Source of the DNA: Bacteroidaceae bacterium
GTDB lineage: Bacteria > Bacteroidota > Bacteroidia > Bacteroidales > Bacteroidaceae
Assembly: GCA_017560945.1 (NCBI GenBank)
Contig: JAFZDY010000040.1
Location: 1 to 35,154 of the forward strand
Direction: 5' to 3'
Length of the DNA: 35,154 bases
Shown here in pieces: positions 479 through 31,788 of this stretch. Under the pieces are notes generated by a model. The model was given only the letters and a program-made list of their open reading frames with translations. It had not been told where the DNA came from and did not search any database. Within the stretch, counting starts at the first letter, position 1, and each line of letters starts with the position of its first letter. A program made the position numbers and the translations under genes.

Positions 479-552
479 GAAATGGAAATAGTTAAGTCAC
501 CAAATTGTAAACAACCAAATAGTAAATTATGCTCATACATTATCTAAGTCTC
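464..552 (+). repeat. Junction repeat copy 1 between tandem permease genes
   Basis: This 89-bp stretch covers the last codons of the upstream permease, the whole 50-bp intergenic gap and the first codons of the next permease. It is identical base for base to 2875-2963. The identity ends at single mismatches (463 versus 2874; 553 versus 2964) but high similarity continues on both sides. An identical non-coding gap points to recent duplication or gene conversion, not to protein-level selection alone. Confidence 0.9.
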
Positions 553-2889
553 GCATGGGACCAGTTGAAGAAGTACCGCCTACAATCGATGGTCAGTATC
601 GTAAGTCTTGCCATTGGCTTTGCTTGTTTTGCCCTGGCGGCCATGTGGATAAAGTACGAAACCACATACGACGCATTTCACAAGGATGCGGATGATATCT
701 ATTGCCTAATGCGCAAGGACAAAGGTATCTCAGGAGGATACTCTTCATGGAGTTCTACTATACCAGTAAGTGATTCTATTATTGCCCGTTGTCCAGAAAT
801 TGATAAGTATATGGTCTTTTTTTGGTCCAGTAACTTTCGACGTGCGACATCAATGGAGAACGATTCAATTTACCTTGAGAATACGACTACATTGTATTGC
901 GATAGTTCTTTTTTTGATTTCTTCCCAGTAAGATTCTTGATTGGAAACAAAGACTTTTTGTTAGAAGATAATAAAATTGCTATTACTCAAGAAGCAGCTC
1001 GGAAATTATGGAAAAATGAGAACCCCATTGGTAAACGACTAACGATTGGAGCATATAATAATAATGAATTTATAGTAGCAGCAGTAGTAGAAGGGTGGGG
1101 CGAGCACACCAATATACCATTCTCTTTTATCCAGAATTTAAGTCCGCATGACAATTCTGGTCCTTTTAGCTATCGTAATTACGCTCTTCGTTTACATCCC
1201 AATGTAGATATAGAGAAACTGAACGAGAAATTGGCAGCTTTGCCAATGTTTAATCTTCCTCGTCATAATCCGATGGAAATGGATTGTGTATGGTCGGTAC
1301 TTCCATTGACCAAGTTGCATCAGGTGAATGCTAAACGAAACAAATCTTTTCAATTAAATCATATTTATCTATTTTCTATTGCGGGTGGATTATTAATCTT
1401 GTGTGGTCTTCTGAACTATCTTACTATGTTTATCAACCGTCTTTTCATCCGCAAACGAGAGATTGCCCTACGCAGGGTGTTTGGCGCATCAAGCGGACAT
1501 CTGATGACTCAGTTCCTCGTCGAATATGGTTTGGTACTCGTCATCGCCATGTTATTAGGGTTCTTCATATTGAATGCCTCCTTAGATTGGTTCTGCACCT
1601 TGTCCAAGTTGCCTTACGAACTCGGATATATCTATGGCGAGTGCTTCATCTATATGCTTGTGGTTATAGCCGTCTCGTTTCTTGTCTCCATACCGTTCAT
1701 CACATATTTCCGCAGACAATCGTTACAAATAGCCATTACTGGAGTAGGCGGACTTGCTCATTACAATATATTCCGCCGCATCAGTACCTGCTTCCAGATA
1801 GGTATTGCCTTCTTCTGTATATTTTGTACGGTGGTATTGCAAAAGCAGTTGAATGAACTTCGCCATGGTGATATTGGTTTTGACCACGAGCGCACTGTAG
1901 AAATTACCATTTTCCATGAAGAGGGATTTGATGATGAAAAGGAATCTTTTCTTCATTATCTCCGTCAACAACCCGAATTAGAGAGTCTCTTCAACGGATA
2001 TCCGCTTTATCCGCGTGGTCCAATCACAAGTTATATTGTCAAAAAAAGTGGAGAGATAGATTTGAATGTACAAACAGCCAGTATCACGGCTTACTATGAT
2101 TGGGATGGTGAACTAAGCCGTTTCCATAACCTTCGCTTGATAGAAGGTCGATTGTTACAACCGGGTGAGGATCCTTCTAATGTAGTTATCAATGAATCTA
2201 CCGCTAAACTGTATGATTGGGATTCTCCCATTGGTAAGCGTATTCTTAATGGATTAACCGTAGTGGGAGTGGTAAAAGACTTTAAGAATAATGGTCCTAC
2301 CATGCCTGCACAACCCTCCATATTGGTTCAAAAAAGAGAGGAAGACCCCTCCCATTATGTACTGAAGTACTCCGCTGGCAAATGGAGTGACCATCAGAAA
2401 AAATACGAGGAACACATTAAGAGTACTGGTAACAATTTGTATATTTCGTTTCTTCCCATAGAAGACAAGTTCAATGCCAACCTTGTTAGTGAAGACAACC
2501 TTCAAACTCTACTCTCCATCACCACAGGTGTCTGCATCCTCATCGCCCTCTTCGGTGTATGGTCGATGATAATGCTCACGTGTGAGCAACGTCGCAAGGA
2601 GATTGCCATCCGTAAGGTGTATGGTGCGACTACGAAGGACATCCTCGACATGTTCATCATCGAATACATGACCTTGCAAGGTATAGCGGCCATAGTAGCC
2701 TTCCCCATCGGCTACGCTTGCATGAAGACATGGCTGGAGCAATACGTGGTACAAACGGAAATCTCGTGGTGGATATACGTGGGCATCTTCCTCGTCGTTG
2801 CCCTGCTCGTAGCCCTTTGCGTCGGTTGGCGTGTATGGAAAACAGCCAAGGCCAAACCCGCAGATGAGATTGCGAAGGGAAGAGGGTAA
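529..2889 (+). CDS. FtsX/MacB-type ABC transporter permease (tandem copy 2)
   Basis: A 786-residue inner-membrane permease with duplicated MacB-periplasmic-core plus FtsX layout. The N-terminal helix (about residues 20-41, VSIVSLAIGFACFALAAMWI) is followed by a periplasmic domain to about 280, a three-helix FtsX block (about 283-400) with coupling segment IRKREIALRRVFGAS, then a second helix near 425, a second periplasmic domain, and a C-terminal FtsX block (about 665-785) with CEQRRKEIAIRKVYGAT. The start is the ATG at 529, 50 bp after the previous stop; the downstream copy starts in the same context. Codons for the first periplasmic domain (roughly 700-1370) look more AT-rich than the two ends, which match the neighbours. 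Probably co-transcribed with the flanking copies. Two-domain permeases of this size are common in Bacteroidota; the substrate cannot be told from sequence. Confidence 0.92.
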   Translation: MLIHYLSLAWDQLKKYRLQSMVSIVSLAIGFACFALAAMWIKYETTYDAFHKDADDIYCLMRKDKGISGGYSSWSSTIPVSDSIIARCPEIDKYMVFFWSSNFRRATSMENDSIYLENTTTLYCDSSFFDFFPVRFLIGNKDFLLEDNKIAITQEAARKLWKNENPIGKRLTIGAYNNNEFIVAAVVEGWGEHTNIPFSFIQNLSPHDNSGPFSYRNYALRLHPNVDIEKLNEKLAALPMFNLPRHNPMEMDCVWSVLPLTKLHQVNAKRNKSFQLNHIYLFSIAGGLLILCGLLNYLTMFINRLFIRKREIALRRVFGASSGHLMTQFLVEYGLVLVIAMLLGFFILNASLDWFCTLSKLPYELGYIYGECFIYMLVVIAVSFLVSIPFITYFRRQSLQIAITGVGGLAHYNIFRRISTCFQIGIAFFCIFCTVVLQKQLNELRHGDIGFDHERTVEITIFHEEGFDDEKESFLHYLRQQPELESLFNGYPLYPRGPITSYIVKKSGEIDLNVQTASITAYYDWDGELSRFHNLRLIEGRLLQPGEDPSNVVINESTAKLYDWDSPIGKRILNGLTVVGVVKDFKNNGPTMPAQPSILVQKREEDPSHYVLKYSAGKWSDHQKKYEEHIKSTGNNLYISFLPIEDKFNANLVSEDNLQTLLSITTGVCILIALFGVWSMIMLTCEQRRKEIAIRKVYGATTKDILDMFIIEYMTLQGIAAIVAFPIGYACMKTWLEQYVVQTEISWWIYVGIFLVVALLVALCVGWRVWKTAKAKPADEIAKGRG

Positions 2890-2963
2890 GAAATGGAAAT
2901 AGTTAAGTCACCAAATTGTAAACAACCAAATAGTAAATTATGCTCATACATTATCTAAGTCTC
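2875..2963 (+). repeat. Junction repeat copy 2 between tandem permease genes
   Basis: Identical over 89 bp to 464-552, at an offset of 2411 bp. It includes the stop codon of the second permease, the complete intergenic gap and the start of the third permease. Confidence 0.9.
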
Positions 2964-5339
2964 TCATGGGACCAGTTGAAGAAGTACCGCTTGCAATCAG
3001 CGGTTAGTATCGTAAGTTTGGCCATCGGCTTTGCCTGTTTCGCACTGGCCAGCATGTGGATAAAGTATGAGACAACGTATGATGCGTTTCATAAGGATGC
3101 GGACAGAATGTATTTCCTTACAGAAGACAGGAGCATGTTGGGAAACCAAAGTGAAGTGGAAAATCGTATAAACAAGGCTTTTTGCGACACCCTCTTCAAA
3201 CATTGTCCCGAGATTGTAGAGATGACCAAGTTTGAATATCGGAATCTGTTTGATGCAAATGATGCATCTTGTTATGGCATACTCTGCGACAGCAGTTTCC
3301 TTGATTTCTTCCAAATAAAGTTTCTAGCAGGCGACCGTGGATTTCTGAAACGTGAAGGCGAAGTGGCCATCACCCGCGAAAGAGCCGAGGAACTATGGCC
3401 CTATGAAAGCCCTTTGGGAAAGGAAATCATATATGCGTATGAGAAGCGGAGAGTTATCACTGCCGTTGTAGAAGGTTGGGGTGAACATACCAATACACCT
3501 TTTGACTTTATCAGTGGAAACATGAATCCGGATGATTTTTCTGTTTGCCACTGTGCTGTCCGTCTCTCGCCTCACGCCGATGTGCGGCATATCAACCAAC
3601 GCATTGATACACTTAAAATAATATCCAGTATTCGGGATAAATATGGAGAACTGATCCACAGGCGTCCTATGGGTAGTTTTGAATTGATTCCTGCCACGAA
3701 ACTCAGACACAGGCTTTCAGTTGAAGACACCCGGATGGAAGTTCAAATTCACCACATCTATCTGTTTGCTCTTGCAGGAGGATTGCTTATCCTATGCGGA
3801 TTGCTCAACTACCTGACCATGTTTGTCAACCGTCTCTTCATCCGTCAGCGCGAAATAGCCCTGCGCACGGTGTTCGGTGCCACGGGTTGGGATTTGATGG
3901 CACAATTCCTTGTTGAATATGGATTGGTGTTACTTATAGCCACAGGTATGGGCATGTACTTAATGAGAGTTTTTTTGGATAAATTCCGTTTATTGGCTCA
4001 ATTACCAAAGGGGACGGATTATTTCTATCGTGAGGGGTTCTTTTATCTGCTGCTCGTAGTGTTCGTTTCATTGCTTATCTCCTTGCCTTTCATTCGTTTC
4101 TTTCGCCGACAGGCTTTGCAGAACTCCATACAACCTCAGGTGGGATTGTTCAGCTACAGCAACTTCCGTAAACTGAGCGTCTGTCTGCAGATAGGCATCA
4201 GCATTTTCTTCATCTTCTGTACCATCGTGATGATGAAGCAGATTGACACCTTGCGCCACTCCGACATCGGCTTCTCAAGACACAACATGGGAATTGTCCT
4301 CATCTCTATGCTTGACGAAAATGGTAGCATGTTTATGCTCCAACGCGATGCTCAGAAGCAGAATGAAAAGGTGGAAGTGACCTATAATTACCTGAACCAA
4401 TTGCCGGACGTTCTGGAAGTGACGCGGAACACACCGATTTTCCCGATAAAGAATCACCGTACGTATCTACTTCAAAAATATGACTCTAATGGCACTCCTG
4501 TACATCCCGACATGGTGGATGACGAATGTCATTTCCAAACGATAACACATGCCGATAACACCTTGTCTGATTTCTACAACCTGCAATTATTGAAAGGAAG
4601 GTTCTTTGAAGAAGGCGATGACCAATGGTGTATCCTTATCAATGAAGCGGCAGCCCGCCAGTTCCATTGGCCTAACCCTGTAGGCAGACAGATTCTTTTA
4701 CCTCTTGGTGGGAATCCTGCTTACACCATTGTCGGGGTTGTCAAGGACTTCTTGAATTATGGAACTACCACGCCTGCCAAGCCTTACATTATATGCCACA
4801 TACTGAATTACGGGAGCAATTACTGCGTATTCAAGTATCGTCCGGGCACATGGAATGCTTGCAAAGAGAAGTTGGAAGAATATGCCAAGCAGATAAACGT
4901 GCATTATGATTTCTTTAATGTGGAAGAAGAATACGAAAAGCTGTTGAAATCAGAGAAGAATCTGCAAATCCTACTTTTCATTACAGCGGGTGTCTGCATC
5001 CTCATCGCCCTCTTCGGTGTGTGGTCGATGATTATGCTCACCTGTGAACAGAGAAGGAAGGAGATTGCCATCCGAAAGGTATATGGTGCGACTACGAAGG
5101 ACATCCTCGATATGTTCATCATCGAATACATGACTTTGCAAGGTATAGCAGCCATAGTGGCCTTCCCCATCGGCTACGCTTGCATGAAGCCATGGCTGGA
5201 GCAATACGTGGTGCAGACCTCCATCCCGTGGTGGATTTACGTCGGCATCTTCATGGCCGTAGCCATGCTTGTAGCCCTCTGCGTCGGTTGGCGTGTATGG
5301 AAAACAGCCAAGGCCAAACCCGCAGATGAGATAGAGTGA
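2940..5339 (+). CDS. FtsX/MacB-type ABC transporter permease (tandem copy 3)
   Basis: A 799-residue paralogue of the preceding gene with the same two-domain layout: N-terminal helix, periplasmic domain (about residues 42-280), FtsX block with IRQREIALRTVFGATG, second periplasmic domain, and C-terminal FtsX block with CEQRRKEIAIRKVYGATTKD. The first ~50 residues and last ~120 residues are almost the same as in copy 2, while the periplasmic domains align only loosely. The C-terminus is shorter than in the other copies: it ends KPADEIE, lacking the AKGRG tail. This appears to be the last gene of the permease cluster, since the following 530 bases have no coding region and the next gene is on the other strand. 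Role inferred from family: ATP-driven transport or mechanotransmission across the envelope; substrate unknown. Confidence 0.92.
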   Translation: MLIHYLSLSWDQLKKYRLQSAVSIVSLAIGFACFALASMWIKYETTYDAFHKDADRMYFLTEDRSMLGNQSEVENRINKAFCDTLFKHCPEIVEMTKFEYRNLFDANDASCYGILCDSSFLDFFQIKFLAGDRGFLKREGEVAITRERAEELWPYESPLGKEIIYAYEKRRVITAVVEGWGEHTNTPFDFISGNMNPDDFSVCHCAVRLSPHADVRHINQRIDTLKIISSIRDKYGELIHRRPMGSFELIPATKLRHRLSVEDTRMEVQIHHIYLFALAGGLLILCGLLNYLTMFVNRLFIRQREIALRTVFGATGWDLMAQFLVEYGLVLLIATGMGMYLMRVFLDKFRLLAQLPKGTDYFYREGFFYLLLVVFVSLLISLPFIRFFRRQALQNSIQPQVGLFSYSNFRKLSVCLQIGISIFFIFCTIVMMKQIDTLRHSDIGFSRHNMGIVLISMLDENGSMFMLQRDAQKQNEKVEVTYNYLNQLPDVLEVTRNTPIFPIKNHRTYLLQKYDSNGTPVHPDMVDDECHFQTITHADNTLSDFYNLQLLKGRFFEEGDDQWCILINEAAARQFHWPNPVGRQILLPLGGNPAYTIVGVVKDFLNYGTTTPAKPYIICHILNYGSNYCVFKYRPGTWNACKEKLEEYAKQINVHYDFFNVEEEYEKLLKSEKNLQILLFITAGVCILIALFGVWSMIMLTCEQRRKEIAIRKVYGATTKDILDMFIIEYMTLQGIAAIVAFPIGYACMKPWLEQYVVQTSIPWWIYVGIFMAVAMLVALCVGWRVWKTAKAKPADEIE

Positions 5340-5477
5340 AGAATGAGTTCTCAAGGGCGATGAGTAGTGAGTTATGAGCAGTGAGAGAAGAACTGTTCTG
5401 AAGAACTTTTACTTGCGCAGCTTGATGAACGAAAGCGAACTAATTTTAAATTATGAGTCATCAGAATACTATCAATA

Positions 5478-5605
5478 AGTACTGCAATCACACTTAAGGG
5501 ATACTACAGTACTTCTTATGTGGTACTGTAGTACCATAAGGAGAGTACTCGAGTACCATAAGGCTGGTACTGGAGTACTCCTTAAACGAAATTTTTAGGA
5601 GTACT
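5478..5605 (+). repeat. Array of GTACTnnAGTAC dyads with 22-bp period (copy 1)
   Basis: Five 14-bp dyad units start at 5478, 5500, 5522, 5544 and 5566, exactly 22 bp apart. The units are AGTACTGCAATCAC, GATACTACAGTACT, GGTACTGTAGTACC, AGTACTCGAGTACC and GGTACTGGAGTACT. The arms (GTACT/AGTAC) are conserved while the two central bases change in every unit (GC, AC, GT, CG, GG). The 8-bp gaps carry a degenerate CTTATG/CATAAG motif. The first unit has a decayed right arm. The array closes with AGTACTCCT (5574-5582) and its reverse complement AGGAGTACT (5597-5605). A related array lies inverted at 30927-31076. Not a CRISPR: the gaps are too short and the repeats are imperfect. Function unknown; possibilities are a protein-binding array or a REP-like element. 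Confidence 0.88.
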
Positions 5606-5793
5606 AATTTTTGCTGATTATCAGTAAGTTTCGCTTAATTTAAAGATTTTGATAAAATACCATTTGACAATTGGGGTTGACTACATTCAACCCTAATTGA
5701 TAACATAGGTTGACTGAGTGAAATGTTATTCACGGATAATGTTTACCCGTCGATACTTTTTTGAGTTTTAGTTTAGTTATGTGCAGAATGCAC
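5606..5793 (+). other. Conserved tail of the array element, possible small RNA (copy 1)
   Basis: Non-coding stretch between the dyad array and the terminator at 5794. It shares ordered motifs with the inverted segment beside the second array: GTTGACTAC (5676-5684), ATTGATA (5696-5702), five bases, GGTTGACTGAGT (5708-5719), TTTACCC (5742-5748) and GCAGAAT (5783-5789). ATTGATA lies exactly 90 bases from the array end in both copies. GGGTTGA and TCAACCC can pair around a 6-base loop at 5674-5693. A plus-strand transcript ending at the downstream hairpin would fit a small RNA, but I see no convincing promoter. Confidence 0.45.
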
Positions 5794-5836
5794 AAGAGTC
5801 AGGAACCACCGTGAGGTGCTTCCTGACTCTTTTCTT
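5794..5836 (+). terminator. Strong intrinsic terminator with GTGA tetraloop
   Basis: AAGAGTCAGGAA pairs perfectly with TTCCTGACTCTT (12 bp). After one C/C mismatch CACC pairs with GGTG around a GTGA (GNRA-type) loop, and TTTTCTTTCTC follows on the plus strand. The minus-strand side has no T-run, so it works for plus-strand transcripts. The nearest plus-strand gene ends about 450 bases upstream, so it more probably closes a non-coding transcript from the array element. Confidence 0.85.
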
Positions 5837-5872
5837 TCTCTTATATACAGGTCTTATATACCCAAAATCACA

Positions 5873-6202
5873 TTATGCCTCGCCCTTGAAGTCTGAGAGG
5901 TTGGGGACATAGGTCTTGTTGTTCTGCACCTGCTCGGGCATACGGATGGTACCCCAGTTAGCCTCGTACTTCTTCACATTGTCCTGAAGGGCAAAGAGGA
6001 GACGCTTGGCGTGTTCGGGAGTGAGGACAATGCGTGACTGTACATTGGCCTTGGGAAGTCCGGGCATCACACGTACAAAGTCAAGGATGAACTCTGAAGT
6101 AGAGTGGCTGATGATGGCAAGGTTGGCATAGGTGCCCTGTGCCACCTCTTCCTTCAACTCGATTTGTAACTGTCCGTTCTGGTTGGGAGTATTCTTTTCC
6201 AT
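5873..6202 (-). CDS. DUF3467 family protein
   Basis: A 109-residue soluble protein with the pattern of the DUF3467 family, small proteins widespread in Bacteroidota and without an assigned role. Recognisable segments are TYANLAIISHSTSEFILDF near residues 24-42, the central PGLPKANVQSRIVLTPEHAKRL, and a helix (LLFALQDNVKKYEANWG). No signal peptide or membrane helix is visible. The start ATG at 6200-6202 gives a polar N-terminus (MEKNTPNQNGQLQIEL). It sits 79 bases downstream of the DUF418 gene on the same strand. Family assignment is by recall of the motif pattern; function is unknown. Confidence 0.82.
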   Translation of the reverse strand: MEKNTPNQNGQLQIELKEEVAQGTYANLAIISHSTSEFILDFVRVMPGLPKANVQSRIVLTPEHAKRLLFALQDNVKKYEANWGTIRMPEQVQNNKTYVPNLSDFKGEA

Positions 6203-27195: not shown

Positions 27196-29079
27196 ATGAA
27201 CAAGAGAAACCAATCTATAAACCCATTCGTAAAGGAAGATGCAACTACCCGCACCATTTCGTGGAAACCGTGGATAGAGGTGGTATTGTTTGCTCTATTT
27301 GCCAGCTGGATACTGGTAGGAATGAATAGCGACTATTTCTTCACCGTTCAAGAACGTTCTCTGTTCTTGGCCAATCAAATCTTTTTTGATGAAATGATGG
27401 CAACGCCTGGTGGTCTGTTACATTGGGCAGGAAGTTATTTGACGCAGTTTTTCTACTATCCCACGTTAGGTGCATCCTTACTAATCCTCATTTGGTTGGC
27501 CACATATGGAGTCACAATCAAAGCCTTCAGACTAAATCACACCTGGAGCCATTTAGCCTTGATTCCTATTACAGCCTTGCTATGTTCTACCATCGACCTT
27601 GGATATTGGCTGTATCAAATAAAAATTCCAGGGTATTGGTTTAGCGAAAGTTTGGCTATGCTAATTGTCATATCAGGAATATGGTTGGGTAGAACTCTGC
27701 GTGGAACATGGGGTTACATCTGGTTAGGAGTATGGATTGCAGGAGGATATCCCATATTGGGATGGTATGCACTGTTGGGTGGCATACTGATGGCTATCAT
27801 ATATATTATGGAGTCTGAGAAAAGTGGTTCTCAACGATTTATTCCACTAATATATGTAGTAACTTTAGTAGGTATAGTTCCTCTGCTATGGTACTACCAT
27901 TACAACCAAAATCGTTTGGAAGATGCTTGGATATGTGGGTTTCCACAATTCGAGGTTAAAGATTGTACTTCATGGATAACACTTGCACCATTCTTTGTAA
28001 TGGTCGCAGGATGTTTGATTCTTCCTTTCGTTCTGGTATTGCAAAATGTCATAAAAGGTCGTATGCAAACCATCATCATACGCACTATTGTAATAACAGG
28101 ATGTGCCCTTGTTACATGGATAGCAAATTTCAGCGACTACAATTACCATGCAGAAATGCGTATGTACCGTTATGCCGAAGAGGGTAAATGGCAAAAAATA
28201 TTGCAAGAAGCACGTGAATGTAAAGATACTCCGACCCGCCAAATGGTTATTTTGAAAAATATAGCATTGATGAATTTAGGACAGATGGGAAACCAAATGT
28301 TTCAATATGACAATGGAGGAAAACTATTACACACAAGGGACAACCTGACAACTAACCTTGTACACACTGCCGCCCCAATGCTGTACTATCAACACGGAAT
28401 GCTTAACTATTGCATCAGATGGTGTATTGAAAATGGAGTTGAATATGGATTCACAGTAAATGACTTGAAGTTATTGGCACGTTGTTCATTGCTCGGCGGT
28501 GAATTTAATGCTGCTAAAAAGTATATCAATCTACTGAAACTAACAACCTTTCACCGAAAAGAGGCAGAAAAATTAGAGGAATTATACAATCGTCCTGAAA
28601 ACATATACCAATCGGAAGAATTTAAGGTGGTAAGAGAACTGCATAGATATGTAGCAGAGAATCTTGATAGTGATAACGGATTGTGCGAAATGTATCTGAT
28701 ACACTATTGCTCTAATATGACTAACAACGTTAGTCCACTTGTACAAGAGGTAACATTAAACTATGCACTTATCAGCAGAAATATTCAATTATTTTGGCCA
28801 AAGTTTTTCAAATATGCAGAATTGCACAATGGTGAAGAAATGCCTATTCACTACCAAGAAGCAGCATACCTATATGGTAACCTTGAGAAATCGGTAAATA
28901 TCAGTCAAATGCCATTTGACCATAAAATAATTGAACGATACAAGAAATTCAACGAAATGGTGCAAGCCTACATGAGACAAGGCATGACAGATAAAGAAGT
29001 TGCAGAAGCCGTAAAACCAGCCTTTGGCAATACATTTTGGTGGTTCTATTTCTTCTGTAATGACGTAAAGACCTATTAA
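27196..29079 (+). CDS. DUF6057-like membrane protein with soluble helical C-terminal domain
   Basis: About 627 residues when started at the ATG 27196; an in-frame GTG at 27127, behind a GGGG run, would add 23 residues. The first ~305 residues hold about eight to nine membrane helices (VVLFALFASWILVGMNSDYFF; FFYYPTLGASLLILIWLATYG; LWYYHYN; FFVMVAGCLILPFVLVL). The remaining ~320 residues are soluble and helical, with TPR-like spacing (YRYAEEGKWQKILQEARECKD; LGGEFNAAKKYINLL). I recall such proteins as DUF6057 in Bacteroidota; no function is known. The layout recalls membrane glycosyltransferase-type proteins with TPR tails, but no catalytic motif is evident. The stop codon overlaps the earliest in-frame ATG of the next gene (TAATG), so the two are probably translated together. 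Confidence 0.75.
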   Translation: MNKRNQSINPFVKEDATTRTISWKPWIEVVLFALFASWILVGMNSDYFFTVQERSLFLANQIFFDEMMATPGGLLHWAGSYLTQFFYYPTLGASLLILIWLATYGVTIKAFRLNHTWSHLALIPITALLCSTIDLGYWLYQIKIPGYWFSESLAMLIVISGIWLGRTLRGTWGYIWLGVWIAGGYPILGWYALLGGILMAIIYIMESEKSGSQRFIPLIYVVTLVGIVPLLWYYHYNQNRLEDAWICGFPQFEVKDCTSWITLAPFFVMVAGCLILPFVLVLQNVIKGRMQTIIIRTIVITGCALVTWIANFSDYNYHAEMRMYRYAEEGKWQKILQEARECKDTPTRQMVILKNIALMNLGQMGNQMFQYDNGGKLLHTRDNLTTNLVHTAAPMLYYQHGMLNYCIRWCIENGVEYGFTVNDLKLLARCSLLGGEFNAAKKYINLLKLTTFHRKEAEKLEELYNRPENIYQSEEFKVVRELHRYVAENLDSDNGLCEMYLIHYCSNMTNNVSPLVQEVTLNYALISRNIQLFWPKFFKYAELHNGEEMPIHYQEAAYLYGNLEKSVNISQMPFDHKIIERYKKFNEMVQAYMRQGMTDKEVAEAVKPAFGNTFWWFYFFCNDVKTY

Positions 29080-29108
29080 TGGAATCAACAACTATAAACA
29101 AGGAGTTT

Positions 29109-30614
29109 ATGAATAACAAAGGATTTATACCTTATTACGTATTTGCATGTATATTGATGGCATTGGTTTCATGCGGTAAACATCCAGCGTTACCTGAGGT
29201 GTATGACAATTCAAACCAACTACCTACAATATATCCCGACTATACCGACGTAACTATACCGAGCAACATTGCACCCATGAACTTTATGGTAGAGAATGCA
29301 GAAGCCTGTATCGCAGAGTTCTGTTGGGGAAATCATTCACAGACATTTGGCAATGCCAACAAAGTACAAATACCCCTGAAGGATTGGCAGAATATAATGG
29401 AGGAAGCCAAAGGGGAATCTATACAAGTAACAGTATACACCCAACAAGACAAAGAATGGACACGTCATACACCATTTCATATTTATGTGGCACAGGAGGA
29501 GGTAGATCCCTATATATCTTATCGTGTCATTAGCCCCTCATACACAGCATATGAAATGCTAAGTATCAACCAACGCCATCTGAGTAGTTTTGATGAATCG
29601 GTTGTATACAACAATATGCTTATAAATAAGGGTGCAAATGGACAGTGCATAAATTGTCACTCATACCAAAACTATGGTACTGACAATATGCAGTTTCATA
29701 TGAGACAAGCGCAAGGTGGTACCATGATTGTAACTGACGGAATTCCCCGCAAAGTAAACTTGAAGACGCCTGAGACTATTAGTGCCGGTGTGTACCCTGC
29801 CTGGCATCCTACACAAAAATTGATAGCCTACTCTACAAACAAAACAGGTCAATCGTTCCATACTAAAGAATTGGGTAAAGTAGAAGTCTTCGACAGCCGT
29901 AGTGACCTCATACTCTATGATATAGAGAAAAACCAAGTGAGCACTATCAGTGCAGAAGAGAATGAAATGGAAGTCTACCCTTGGTGGTCACCCGATGGAG
30001 GTACATTGTACTATGCTTCGGCACATTTTACCTATATTTATGATATAGCAGAAGACGCAGAAGTTATCAATCGATACAAAGACATCAAGTATAATATTTA
30101 CCGTCGAAAGTTCGACACAACCAATCATACATTCTCTGAGCCAGAATTAGTATATGATGCAGCCTCTGTCGGTCAGAGTGCAACATTACCACGCATAAGC
30201 CCTTGCGGAAGATTTCTGCTCTTTTCAATGGGTGATGATGGATGTTTCCACATTTGGCATCCTGAAGCAGATCTTTACATCATGAATTTGGCCAATGGTA
30301 TGGTACATCCACTTGAAGAGGCTAATAGTAACGCCGCCGAAAGTTATCATTCGTGGTCAAGTAACGGGCGATGGATACTCTTCAGCAGCCGTAGAGATGA
30401 TAGCAATTACACACGTCTATACTTGAGTTACGTAGATGAAAATGGAAAGGACCATAAGGCATTTGCCGTGCCACAGGAAGATCCTGAATACTATTACCAC
30501 TACCTACGCAGTTACAATGTACCTGAATTTATGAGCGAACCTGTAAGCATTAGTCCTCAGGAATTTGCTGCAGCAGCCAAGAAAGAGCCAATACAAGCTC
30601 AATATAAGAATTAA
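29109..30614 (+). CDS. TolB/PD40-type beta-propeller lipoprotein with a CxxCH haem motif
   Basis: About 501 residues from the ATG at 29109, which has AGGAG six bases before it; the ATG at 29079, overlapping the upstream stop, would add 10 residues. The signal peptide ends in a lipobox (LMALVSCG), so the protein is predicted to be lipid-anchored. A CINCH motif (C180-H184) matches the c-type haem attachment site. It is followed by TolB/PD40-like propeller blades: YPAWHPTQKLIAYSTNK, YPWWSPDGGTLYYAS, LPRISPCGRFLLFSMGDDG and YHSWSSNGRWILFSSRRDD. An N-terminal ~150-residue region is unassigned. It pairs with the DUF6057 gene by overlap. Haem attachment needs a c-type maturation system, which is not visible here. 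Function unknown. Confidence 0.82.
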   Translation: MNNKGFIPYYVFACILMALVSCGKHPALPEVYDNSNQLPTIYPDYTDVTIPSNIAPMNFMVENAEACIAEFCWGNHSQTFGNANKVQIPLKDWQNIMEEAKGESIQVTVYTQQDKEWTRHTPFHIYVAQEEVDPYISYRVISPSYTAYEMLSINQRHLSSFDESVVYNNMLINKGANGQCINCHSYQNYGTDNMQFHMRQAQGGTMIVTDGIPRKVNLKTPETISAGVYPAWHPTQKLIAYSTNKTGQSFHTKELGKVEVFDSRSDLILYDIEKNQVSTISAEENEMEVYPWWSPDGGTLYYASAHFTYIYDIAEDAEVINRYKDIKYNIYRRKFDTTNHTFSEPELVYDAASVGQSATLPRISPCGRFLLFSMGDDGCFHIWHPEADLYIMNLANGMVHPLEEANSNAAESYHSWSSNGRWILFSSRRDDSNYTRLYLSYVDENGKDHKAFAVPQEDPEYYYHYLRSYNVPEFMSEPVSISPQEFAAAAKKEPIQAQYKN

Positions 30615-30741: not shown

Positions 30742-30926
30742 TTTTGATTATTCTGCTTTTCAACAAACACAATGACCATGGGTAAAAGTAAATATTTTAC
30801 TAGAGGAAACCAACTCAGTCAACCTCAACTATCAATAAGATAAAAAGTGGTCAACTAAAAACATTAATAGGCACAATCAATAGAACAGGTACAATCAACA
30901 TAAAACATTGATATCCAATCAAAATT
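30742..30926 (-). other. Conserved tail of the array element, possible small RNA (copy 2)
   Basis: Read on the minus strand, this holds the same ordered motifs as 5606-5793: GTTGACCAC (30847-30855), ATTGATA (30830-30836), five bases, GGTTGACTGAGT (30813-30824), TTTACCC (30780-30786) and GCAGAAT (30750-30756), then a terminator hairpin. ATTGATA is again 90 bases from the array end. The rest of the sequence is diverged. No open frame of note and no clear promoter. Confidence 0.45.
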
Positions 30927-31076
30927 AGTACTCCTAAAAAAATCGCTAAAGGAGTACTGCAGTACTACCTATATGGTACTGCAGTATTTCATAAGTGGTA
31001 CTGGAGTACTACATAAGTGATACTTGAGTACTACATAAGAAGTACTCAAGAATCTCTTAAGTGTGATTATAGTACT
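30927..31076 (-). repeat. Array of GTACTnnAGTAC dyads with 22-bp period (copy 2, inverted)
   Basis: Six 14-bp units start at 30953, 30975, 30997, 31019, 31041 and 31063, exactly 22 bp apart: AGTACTGCAGTACT, GGTACTGCAGTATT, GGTACTGGAGTACT, GATACTTGAGTACT, AGTACTCAAGAATC and GTGATTATAGTACT. The last matches the reverse complement of the decayed first unit of copy 1. AGTACTCCT (30927-30935) and AGGAGTACT (30950-30958) close the other end as in copy 1. The 8-bp gaps carry CATAAG. This copy has one unit more than copy 1 and the opposite orientation; it also lies between convergent genes. Confidence 0.88.
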
Positions 31077-31149
31077 GATTCGCTTATGCTAAAACCATCC
31101 TGAAAAAGACTGGGAAAATATGAAAAGATTAGAGAGGGGCTTGTAATTA

Positions 31150-31239: not shown

Positions 31240-31788
31240 TTATTCTTCAGAAACACGAAAGAAGGAAAAGTTGACGCTACCATAAGCACGATGTTCGACA
31301 AAGCAGCGATGATTTTCGAACTTATGATCTTTACCATGTTCCAGCACAAACAATCCATCAGGTTTTAATAGACCATGTTGGAATATCAAATCAGGAATTT
31401 GTGATAACTCTTTTAATGCGTATGGCGGGTCTGCAAAAATAAAATCGAACTGTTCACCTGCTCTACTTATGTATTTTAGCGCATCAGCACAGATAGGTAT
31501 ACATCTATCAGTTTTAACCTGACGCATGACGTCGCATATGAAAGCATGATGGTTGTGATCCTTCTCAATTGAAACCACTCGTGAACATCCACGTGAAACC
31601 AATTCAATACTAATGCTACCCGTACCTGCAAATAAATCCAAGGCTGTTACCCCCTCTTCATCAAAATCAAGATAAGCTGTAAGTACATTAAAGAGATTCT
31701 CTTTAGCAAAATCGGTTGTAGGACGCGCTTTAAAGGAACGCGGCACTTCGAATCTTCTTCGTTTATATATTCCACTAATAACTCTCAT
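31240..31788 (-). CDS. rsmD: 16S rRNA (guanine(966)-N2)-methyltransferase RsmD
   Basis: Methylates G966 of 16S rRNA with S-adenosylmethionine in the cytoplasm. The 182 residues match the family length. Visible motifs: the N-terminal RVISGIYKRRRF and RPTTDFAKENLFNVL segments typical of RsmD, the SAM-binding ALDLFAGTGSISIELVSRG (about residues 49-67), VVSIEKD, and the catalytic DPPY (D120-Y123). Start ATG 31786-31788. It is the last gene of a tight three-gene minus-strand unit (18 bases after the DUF3822 gene) closed by a terminator. Confidence 0.95.
   Translation of the reverse strand: MRVISGIYKRRRFEVPRSFKARPTTDFAKENLFNVLTAYLDFDEEGVTALDLFAGTGSISIELVSRGCSRVVSIEKDHNHHAFICDVMRQVKTDRCIPICADALKYISRAGEQFDFIFADPPYALKELSQIPDLIFQHGLLKPDGLFVLEHGKDHKFENHRCFVEHRAYGSVNFSFFRVSEE

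Follow-up and report, generated by a model that had tools for sequence, protein, structure and literature searches.

What is a phased row of short palindromes doing between two genes of a Bacteroidaceae bacterium, and which protein, if any, reads it? The window analysed here, the whole of a 35,154-nucleotide stretch of DNA (positions 1 to 35,154 of contig JAFZDY010000040.1, assembly GCA_017560945.1), carries such an array at positions 5479-5578, where five 12-bp sites follow one another at exact 22-bp steps. We conclude, with a probability of roughly 0.64, that a protein of the DUF6078 family (PF19555) has its target sites in arrays dispersed through the genome, of which this array is one copy. 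The pairing of this protein family with the arrays is well supported by association. Our best reading, in which we infer both binding and function, is that of a REPtron-like gene-plus-array system (REP, repetitive extragenic palindrome) built around an unrelated four-cysteine protein.

A dispersed element of phased dyads

The sites of the reported array (5479..5578, unstranded) are of the GTACTNNAGTAC type and start at 5479 (GTACTGCAATCA), 5501 (ATACTACAGTAC), 5523 (GTACTGTAGTAC), 5545 (GTACTCGAGTAC) and 5567 (GTACTGGAGTAC). The right arm of the first is degenerate (three mismatches), and four of the five sites fit GTACTNNAGTAC at no more than one mismatch; the original prediction, made from the letters of this DNA alone, was therefore slightly generous in describing five units with conserved arms. 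The exact spacing that it described is confirmed, as are the CTTATG/CATAAG motifs in the gaps. It had also pointed to the variable centres of the sites, and all five centres do differ. These centres are linkers, however. Arrays in other species mostly start, by eye, with the half-site CAGTAC and end with GTACTG, which makes AGTAC-N10-GTACT, followed by a 2-bp linker, the unit of repetition. Three such units are seen in the sequence of the reported array, at 5508..5527, 5530..5549 and 5552..5571 (all unstranded). The half-site ends had escaped the original survey of the window, as had a second array at 30954-31031. Matches to the GTACTNNAGTAC type at no more than one mismatch number nine in the window, including one lone site within a gene; 100 dinucleotide shuffles gave a mean of 0.62, and none of them reached nine.

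Alignment with the other copies in the genome places the reported array within an oriented repeat of about 170 bp, W1, which lies on the minus strand at 5456..5625 (ends approximate) and has its left end (TGATAATCAG...TTAGTACTCC) at the high coordinate. The second window copy of the same element, W2, occupies 30909..31085 on the plus strand (ends approximate, right end diverged), and its array comprises four GTACTNNAGTAC-type sites at 22-bp steps (30954..31031, unstranded). Dispersal extends well beyond the window. In the bacterium's own genome, whose assembly is 82% complete, the genome-wide search proposed along with the original prediction returned 49 pairs at 22-bp spacing (at most three mismatches) and none for the reversed pattern. 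These pairs make up 16 arrays, of which two lie at the end of a contig. The aligned copies share an oriented element of about 170 bp around usually four central sites; left and right end motifs are both present in 12 of the 16, three others (W2 included) are without the right end motif, and one is truncated where its contig stops. By eye, the element ends resemble imperfect inverted repeats. Similar arrays are spread through many Bacteroidales: a scan of named genomes gave at least 111 stretches, in records titled Prevotella, Paraprevotella, Phocaeicola, Bacteroides, Mediterranea, Xylanibacter and Parabacteroides, a good many of which are metagenome bins.

DUF6078 genes and arrays of their own type

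Which gene, then, accompanies these arrays? When 738 open reading frames (ORFs) from array loci were clustered, the top family was a protein of about 144 amino acids, present at 12 loci in 10 assemblies, and at all 12 of these the array lies directly 3' of the gene; the next families reach up to eight loci, in varied positions. Pfam identifies the protein as DUF6078 (116.4 and 102.8 bits against a cut-off of 27). The linkage is observed equally when the genes are gathered by profile alone. A total of 117 loci (L186-L302), the best profile matches rather than a random draw, were fetched; removal of those with insufficient 3' sequence or coverage of the profile left 114 DUF6078 genes, of which 82 are followed within 350 nt by a dyad array of three or more units. 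These arrays start at a median of 61 nt past the stop codon, with a period of 22 bp in 73, 23 in seven and 21 in two. The thresholds of the scan (at least three units, periods of 21-23, 5-base arms) were set after examples had been seen, and the identical scan of the controls detected nothing in 114 shuffles and nothing at 109 ORF ends from loci of a different gene family. These control ORFs run from stop to stop, in any frame, over 120 codons or more, and not all of them are genes. A 5' array was found at 9 of 107 DUF6078 genes, all nine without a 3' array (L222, L220, L237, L252, L253, L275, L267, L274 and L210; several have GTACG or GTCCG arms), and at 23 of the 114 no array was detected on either side. 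Plasmid and phage collections gave eight DUF6078 matches, of which six were read. Each of the six has three or more units, the Treponema one weakly; at the Parabacteroides distasonis locus among them, a GTACT-type array stands beside a 54%-identical protein.

GTACT-type units follow a DUF6078 gene in the own genome (G000:C8:64603-65019, outside the window) and in G027, G014, G007, G104, G163, G202 and G249. The G007 gene (locus L334, G007:C16) is split over two frames, and the GTACT array behind it is decayed. The arms of the arrays differ between DUF6078 clades, and genes without GTACT arrays often carry other arms (TGCCA/TGGCA, GTTTC/GAAAC, AGTTT/AAACT, AGTCCCA/TGGAACT, TTGAC/GTCAA and more). 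Protein identity correlates with array similarity (Mantel r 0.58, permutation maximum 0.078, for 84 proteins of which 12 came from loci found via GTACT arrays), a correlation that could be obtained from physical linkage alone and is weaker than the tests on dispersed copies.

In those tests, the type of the gene agreed with that of the dispersed arrays for two types besides GTACT. A dispersed TGCCA tandem pattern (at most two mismatches) occurs, 4 to 47 times each, in 12 of 12 genomes whose DUF6078 gene carries the TGCCA type and in none of eight comparison genomes, which have other types, lack a clear array or lack the gene; its reversal is absent from all 20. Since the 12 genomes all fall within two genera, they do not amount to 12 independent events. 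AGTTT arrays were present in four of five predicted genomes, against one of nine others. The miss, G218, has a gene-linked array with a gap of 9 bp instead of 10 bp, and the exception, G313, carries a GTTTC-type gene. Several DUF6078 gene types may be found in one genome, each with its own repeat.

Neither the arrays adjoining 82 of 114 genes, as against 0 of 109 other ORF ends, nor the type-matched dispersal of TGCCA and AGTTT arrays would be expected of an unrelated element that lay next to DUF6078 by chance and had no dedicated protein. Such an element would be a minisatellite akin to a miniature inverted-repeat transposable element (MITE), and the oriented repeat, with its tandem array between two unlike ends, its mostly intergenic location and its differences in unit number (L071 against L100), has the look of one. 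There is a precedent within the order to which the source bacterium belongs, in Porphyromonas gingivalis. The BrickBuilt MITE of that species (PMC4596501) has a leader, a tail and a 23-nt unit in up to 22.8 repeats. One strain carries 19 intergenic copies of it, and the part of the description considered here does not mention a partner gene. The two layouts are alike, each a short tandem repeat within a leader-and-tail element (12 of the 16 own-genome copies have both ends); the units differ, being 22-bp dyads here (73 of the 82 gene-linked arrays have that period) and a 23-nt direct repeat there. We consider a chance neighbour of this kind very improbable.

At the level of whole genomes, DUF6078 is found in 170 of 399 genomes of the family, with one to nine matches each: in 42 of the 47 that have GTACT arrays and in 128 of the other 352, giving an odds ratio (OR) of 14.7 and, stratified by genus, of 10 (p 2e-6), figures that shared ancestry may inflate. 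Among 61 relatives, it is present in all nine array-bearing genomes and in 9 of the 52 others. Some assemblies are present twice (e.g. L030 and L089), and the genome sets are thus not fully independent.

Several observations weigh against DUF6078 as the reader of the GTACT arrays. The copies fetched from G131, G411, G400 and G230 have other arms or none, and some array-rich genomes are without a matching gene. Thirteen genomes, some of them incomplete, were picked mainly to probe such exceptions, and all hold at least one GTACT pair. A close GTACT-clade gene was found in three (G386, which has 39 pair matches, G260 and G248; 81-100% identity to the B. mediterraneensis protein), only distant ones in five (24-32%, short weak matches apart) and no match in five. 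The exceptions include nearly complete genomes, namely G410 (94%, 65 pairs), G284 (99%) and G196 (100%), so that arrays can exist without a matching gene. In G410 and G284, GTACT arrays are present and DUF6078 has no match.

Four N-terminal cysteines are invariant in 129 of 129 DUF6078 proteins. The C-terminal domain shows a weak fold resemblance to the lambda-repressor-like helix-turn-helix (HTH), and the N-terminal four-cysteine part gave no confident model. Searched against Pfam, 12 members matched DUF6078 alone at significance, and no homologue of solved structure appeared up to E 5. Identification as a defence gene (PADLOC, best E 0.055, for one of the 12 members) or as a phage gene (PHROGs, best 0.15, also for one of the 12) was rejected. 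Scanning viral contigs yielded 11 matches to the pattern and no relative; four unannotated fecal phage records do encode one.

Gene ends, arms and turnover

The arrays favour the 3' ends of genes. Of 123 distinct arrays, 30 were excluded (21 at a contig edge, nine within an ORF) and 93 were placed relative to genes defined by longest-ORF calls. Convergent genes enclose 37 of the 93, as compared with 20 of 174 background gaps (OR 5.1, p 2e-7), a placement that the original prediction had put up for testing; divergent genes enclose eight, as compared with 51 of 174 (OR 0.23, p 8e-5). In tandem-gene gaps, 34 of 48 arrays are closer to the 3' end of the upstream gene (p 0.006). Both window arrays sit between convergent genes, each with its 3' end towards the array. 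W1 is flanked on the left by an FtsX/MacB-like permease gene (2940..5339, plus strand; PF02687, PF12704) and on the right by a DUF3467 gene (5873..6202, minus strand; PF11950). The neighbours of W2 are a PD40 beta-propeller repeat gene (29079..30614, plus strand; PF07676) and a methyltransferase gene that we take to be RsmD-like (31240..31788, minus strand; PF03602).

Some further observations concern these surroundings. Paralogous FtsX/MacB-like permease genes (window 529-5339; L020, L023 and L026) repeatedly precede copies of the element, perhaps because gene and array were duplicated together. A second intergenic repeat, rich in GTTGAC/GTCAAC, was seen by eye beside several GTACT elements (window 5676-5717 and 30815-30855; flanks in L016, L017, L023 and L027); its arms resemble the GTCAA array behind the DUF6078 gene of L211, and it could thus be the decayed remnant of a different array type. 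In Parabacteroides distasonis (L346, 1910-2060), the start annotated for pbpC and a GTACT array overlap, suggesting that the true start codon lies further downstream.

A location at gene 3' ends would suit an element that acts in RNA, its dyads forming hairpins in the 3' untranslated region as terminators, stabilisers or RNase barriers, and short hairpins were one of the selected features that the original prediction envisaged. Palindromic candidate RNAs in Bacteroidetes are mentioned in PMC8040213. Among 481 units from 132 distinct arrays, co-variation links spacer positions 6 and 15 (z 10.3) and likewise 10 and 11 (z 8.7), a result that is compatible with structure or with binding symmetry and cannot be assigned to either. 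Arm pairs 1-5, on the other hand, show no compensation above chance, a test limited by the acceptance of units only at two or fewer arm mismatches, whereby arm conservation is partly a product of selection. A terminator scan (GC stem followed by a T run) found no intrinsic terminator in window 5300-5900, and Rfam gave no match over either window array and one tRNA elsewhere. Moreover, the five own-genome copies that lie between tandem genes have no fixed orientation to them (two same, three opposite). Hairpins as the object of selection are not borne out in the arms, and a role at the RNA level seems to us a distant prospect. Between the W1 array and the DUF3467 gene, at 5795-5831, the eye finds a long inverted repeat and then T-rich DNA, a feature missing from the list of the terminator scan; the convergent pair by W1 may thus own a terminator.

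The arms themselves appear to be kept. At a site before a gene that we take to be ftsW, common to three assemblies of three species, identical columns number 34 of 35 in the arms and 17 of 30 in the spacers. The three loci were retrieved by an exact arm pattern that fixed 20 of the 35 arm columns beforehand, and because this biases the full count we used the 15 free columns instead, of which 14 are identical, against the same 17 of 30 in the spacers (p 0.016). This modest evidence from one locus points to arms under maintenance while spacers drift. Together with the finding that DUF6078 genes adjoin arrays of their own type and predict the dispersed type, it gives indirect support to the repeated dimeric binding site of the original prediction. 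Unit number also differs between L071 and L100.

Array positions change among relatives. Loci of relatives were identified by the matching gene on one side of the array, and a GTACT array stands behind the RsmD-like gene in 1 of 14 loci and behind the DUF3467 gene in 1 of 9, in both cases in the own genome only. As to whether the motif exceeds chance and recurs in close relatives, the outcome is mixed: the spacing greatly exceeds chance and 8 of 15 genomes of the genus (the own genome included) have the motif, but 13 and 8 relatives have no GTACT array behind the respective gene. Other dyad arrays occupy some of these sites, of a CTTAAG type in G014 and a GTGAT type in G012 by scan and of a ACACGTGT type in G002 by eye; 22-bp arrays of these types stand behind the RsmD-like gene in L304 and L306 and behind the DUF3467 gene in L324. 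The DUF6078 copies read from those genomes, which are incomplete, included no cognate gene for them, and inspection of the relatives' loci by eye revealed no exact insertion boundaries.

This turnover, like the patchy distribution of DUF6078 (170 of 399 genomes), argues against sites of nucleoid or chromosome organisation, at which the protein would serve in bridging, looping or partition. Dispersed multi-dimer arrays with fixed helical phasing, in several types per genome, are what such sites might look like, and yet we regard the idea as improbable. Plasmid iterons and partition sites, whose repeats are phased at about two helical turns, were also among the original suggestions. The present arrays are dispersed over many contigs, mostly at gene 3' ends, and a role of that kind is therefore not supported; DUF6078 alone stood out as a common neighbour among array-adjacent ORFs, in a comparison that included no search aimed at replication genes.

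Known systems and a possible role

The layout of gene and array resembles that of the REPtrons. In those systems there is one gene (RAYT, the REP-associated tyrosine transposase, or TnpA-REP) per repeat type, the gene is flanked by its repeat, and dispersed intergenic palindromes occur in several types per genome with a patchy distribution, according to PMC6006769. Likewise, DUF6078 genes are flanked by their own palindromic repeat (82 of 114 on the 3' side, nine others on the 5' side), and copies of the same type are dispersed in the genome (GTACT; TGCCA in 12 of 12 genomes; AGTTT in four of five). There are differences too. REPtrons have an HUH nuclease, whereas no such domain is present in DUF6078 and no Y1 match was found in the own genome; the arrays here are phased at 22 bp and hold mostly three to five dyads, where a REPtron has one or two hairpins. 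A GTAG-type foot and recognition of single-strand hairpins are features of REPtrons. No such foot was noticed by eye in these arrays; as to hairpins, arm pairing shows no compensation in units chosen by their arms, and spacer pairs co-vary in part. A RAYT/Y1 transposase as partner was considered and rejected, given that PF01797 had no match in the own genome (82% complete), for which four first-look candidates were scored.

The likeness nonetheless supplies the main rival explanation, which is compatible with the target-site reading rather than exclusive of it. DUF6078, alone or with a host enzyme, could be an intragenomic replicator that copies or mobilises the arrays as TnpA-REP does REPs; 3'-end placement would then stem from counter-selection in promoters and genes, and any benefit to the host would be secondary. 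Genes that adjoin their own repeat, scattered copies of that repeat, and more than one gene type in a genome make up the arrangement described for tnpAREP (PMC6006769). The rival gains further from the fact that 12 of the 16 own-genome copies have both end motifs and from window sites that in relatives are empty or hold other arrays. It loses ground in that no Y1/HUH domain was found (the 12 members tested match DUF6078 alone in Pfam, and PF01797 has no matches in the incomplete own genome), that neither insertion boundaries (by eye) nor target duplications are in evidence, and that the arms kept at the three-species site while spacers drift suggest maintenance beyond mere spread. On this evidence we hold replication as the primary function of DUF6078 to be rather unlikely.

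Lambda-repressor-like systems, among them the operators of cI/Cro and of restriction controller proteins, use tandem palindromes bound by small HTH dimers. The fold resemblance of the DUF6078 C-terminal domain, weak as it is, may be a likeness to them; unlike such operators, the arrays here lie behind genes and are dispersed through the genome, not at promoters. If the arrays are target sites for DUF6078, the protein would probably bind as a dimer, one per 22-bp unit, and would contact DNA via its C-terminal domain, possibly a lambda-repressor-like HTH, while the four invariant N-terminal cysteines could hold a metal or an Fe-S cluster. Phasing at two turns would put three to five dimers on one face of the DNA and could yield a cooperative block of protein and DNA at the ends of genes. 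Its place would most often be between convergent genes, and it might stop read-through or opposing transcription, or might mark a domain border. The blocking role is the most speculative step of the proposal, and for that step alone we put the odds somewhat on the negative side.

Taken more widely, DUF6078 and its arrays may represent an undescribed gene-plus-array class in gut Bacteroidales, in which fast-diversifying four-cysteine DNA-binding proteins each read their own 22-bp phased palindrome, with type-matched arrays repeatedly at gene 3' ends and no recognisable nuclease. We offer this class as a serious possibility, a little short of even odds. In the open-access literature searched, no paper contains the word DUF6078, and no listed title deals with it or with these arrays; the layout of the system resembles that of the REPtrons.

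If the pairing holds, DUF6078, a family of so far unassigned function that is present in 170 of 399 genomes, could be given a role that is open to testing, and an extensive group of intergenic repeats in gut bacteria would have a reader. Many protein-array pairs are at hand, and they allow specificity to be decoded by comparison; the family, if the proposal is true, would be a natural library of orthogonal DNA specificities. It would follow, too, that a lifestyle of one gene with dispersed palindromes arose with an unrelated protein, as a non-HUH counterpart of RAYT and REP. Finally, the 3'-end placement of the arrays raises the question of how Bacteroidales separate convergent genes.
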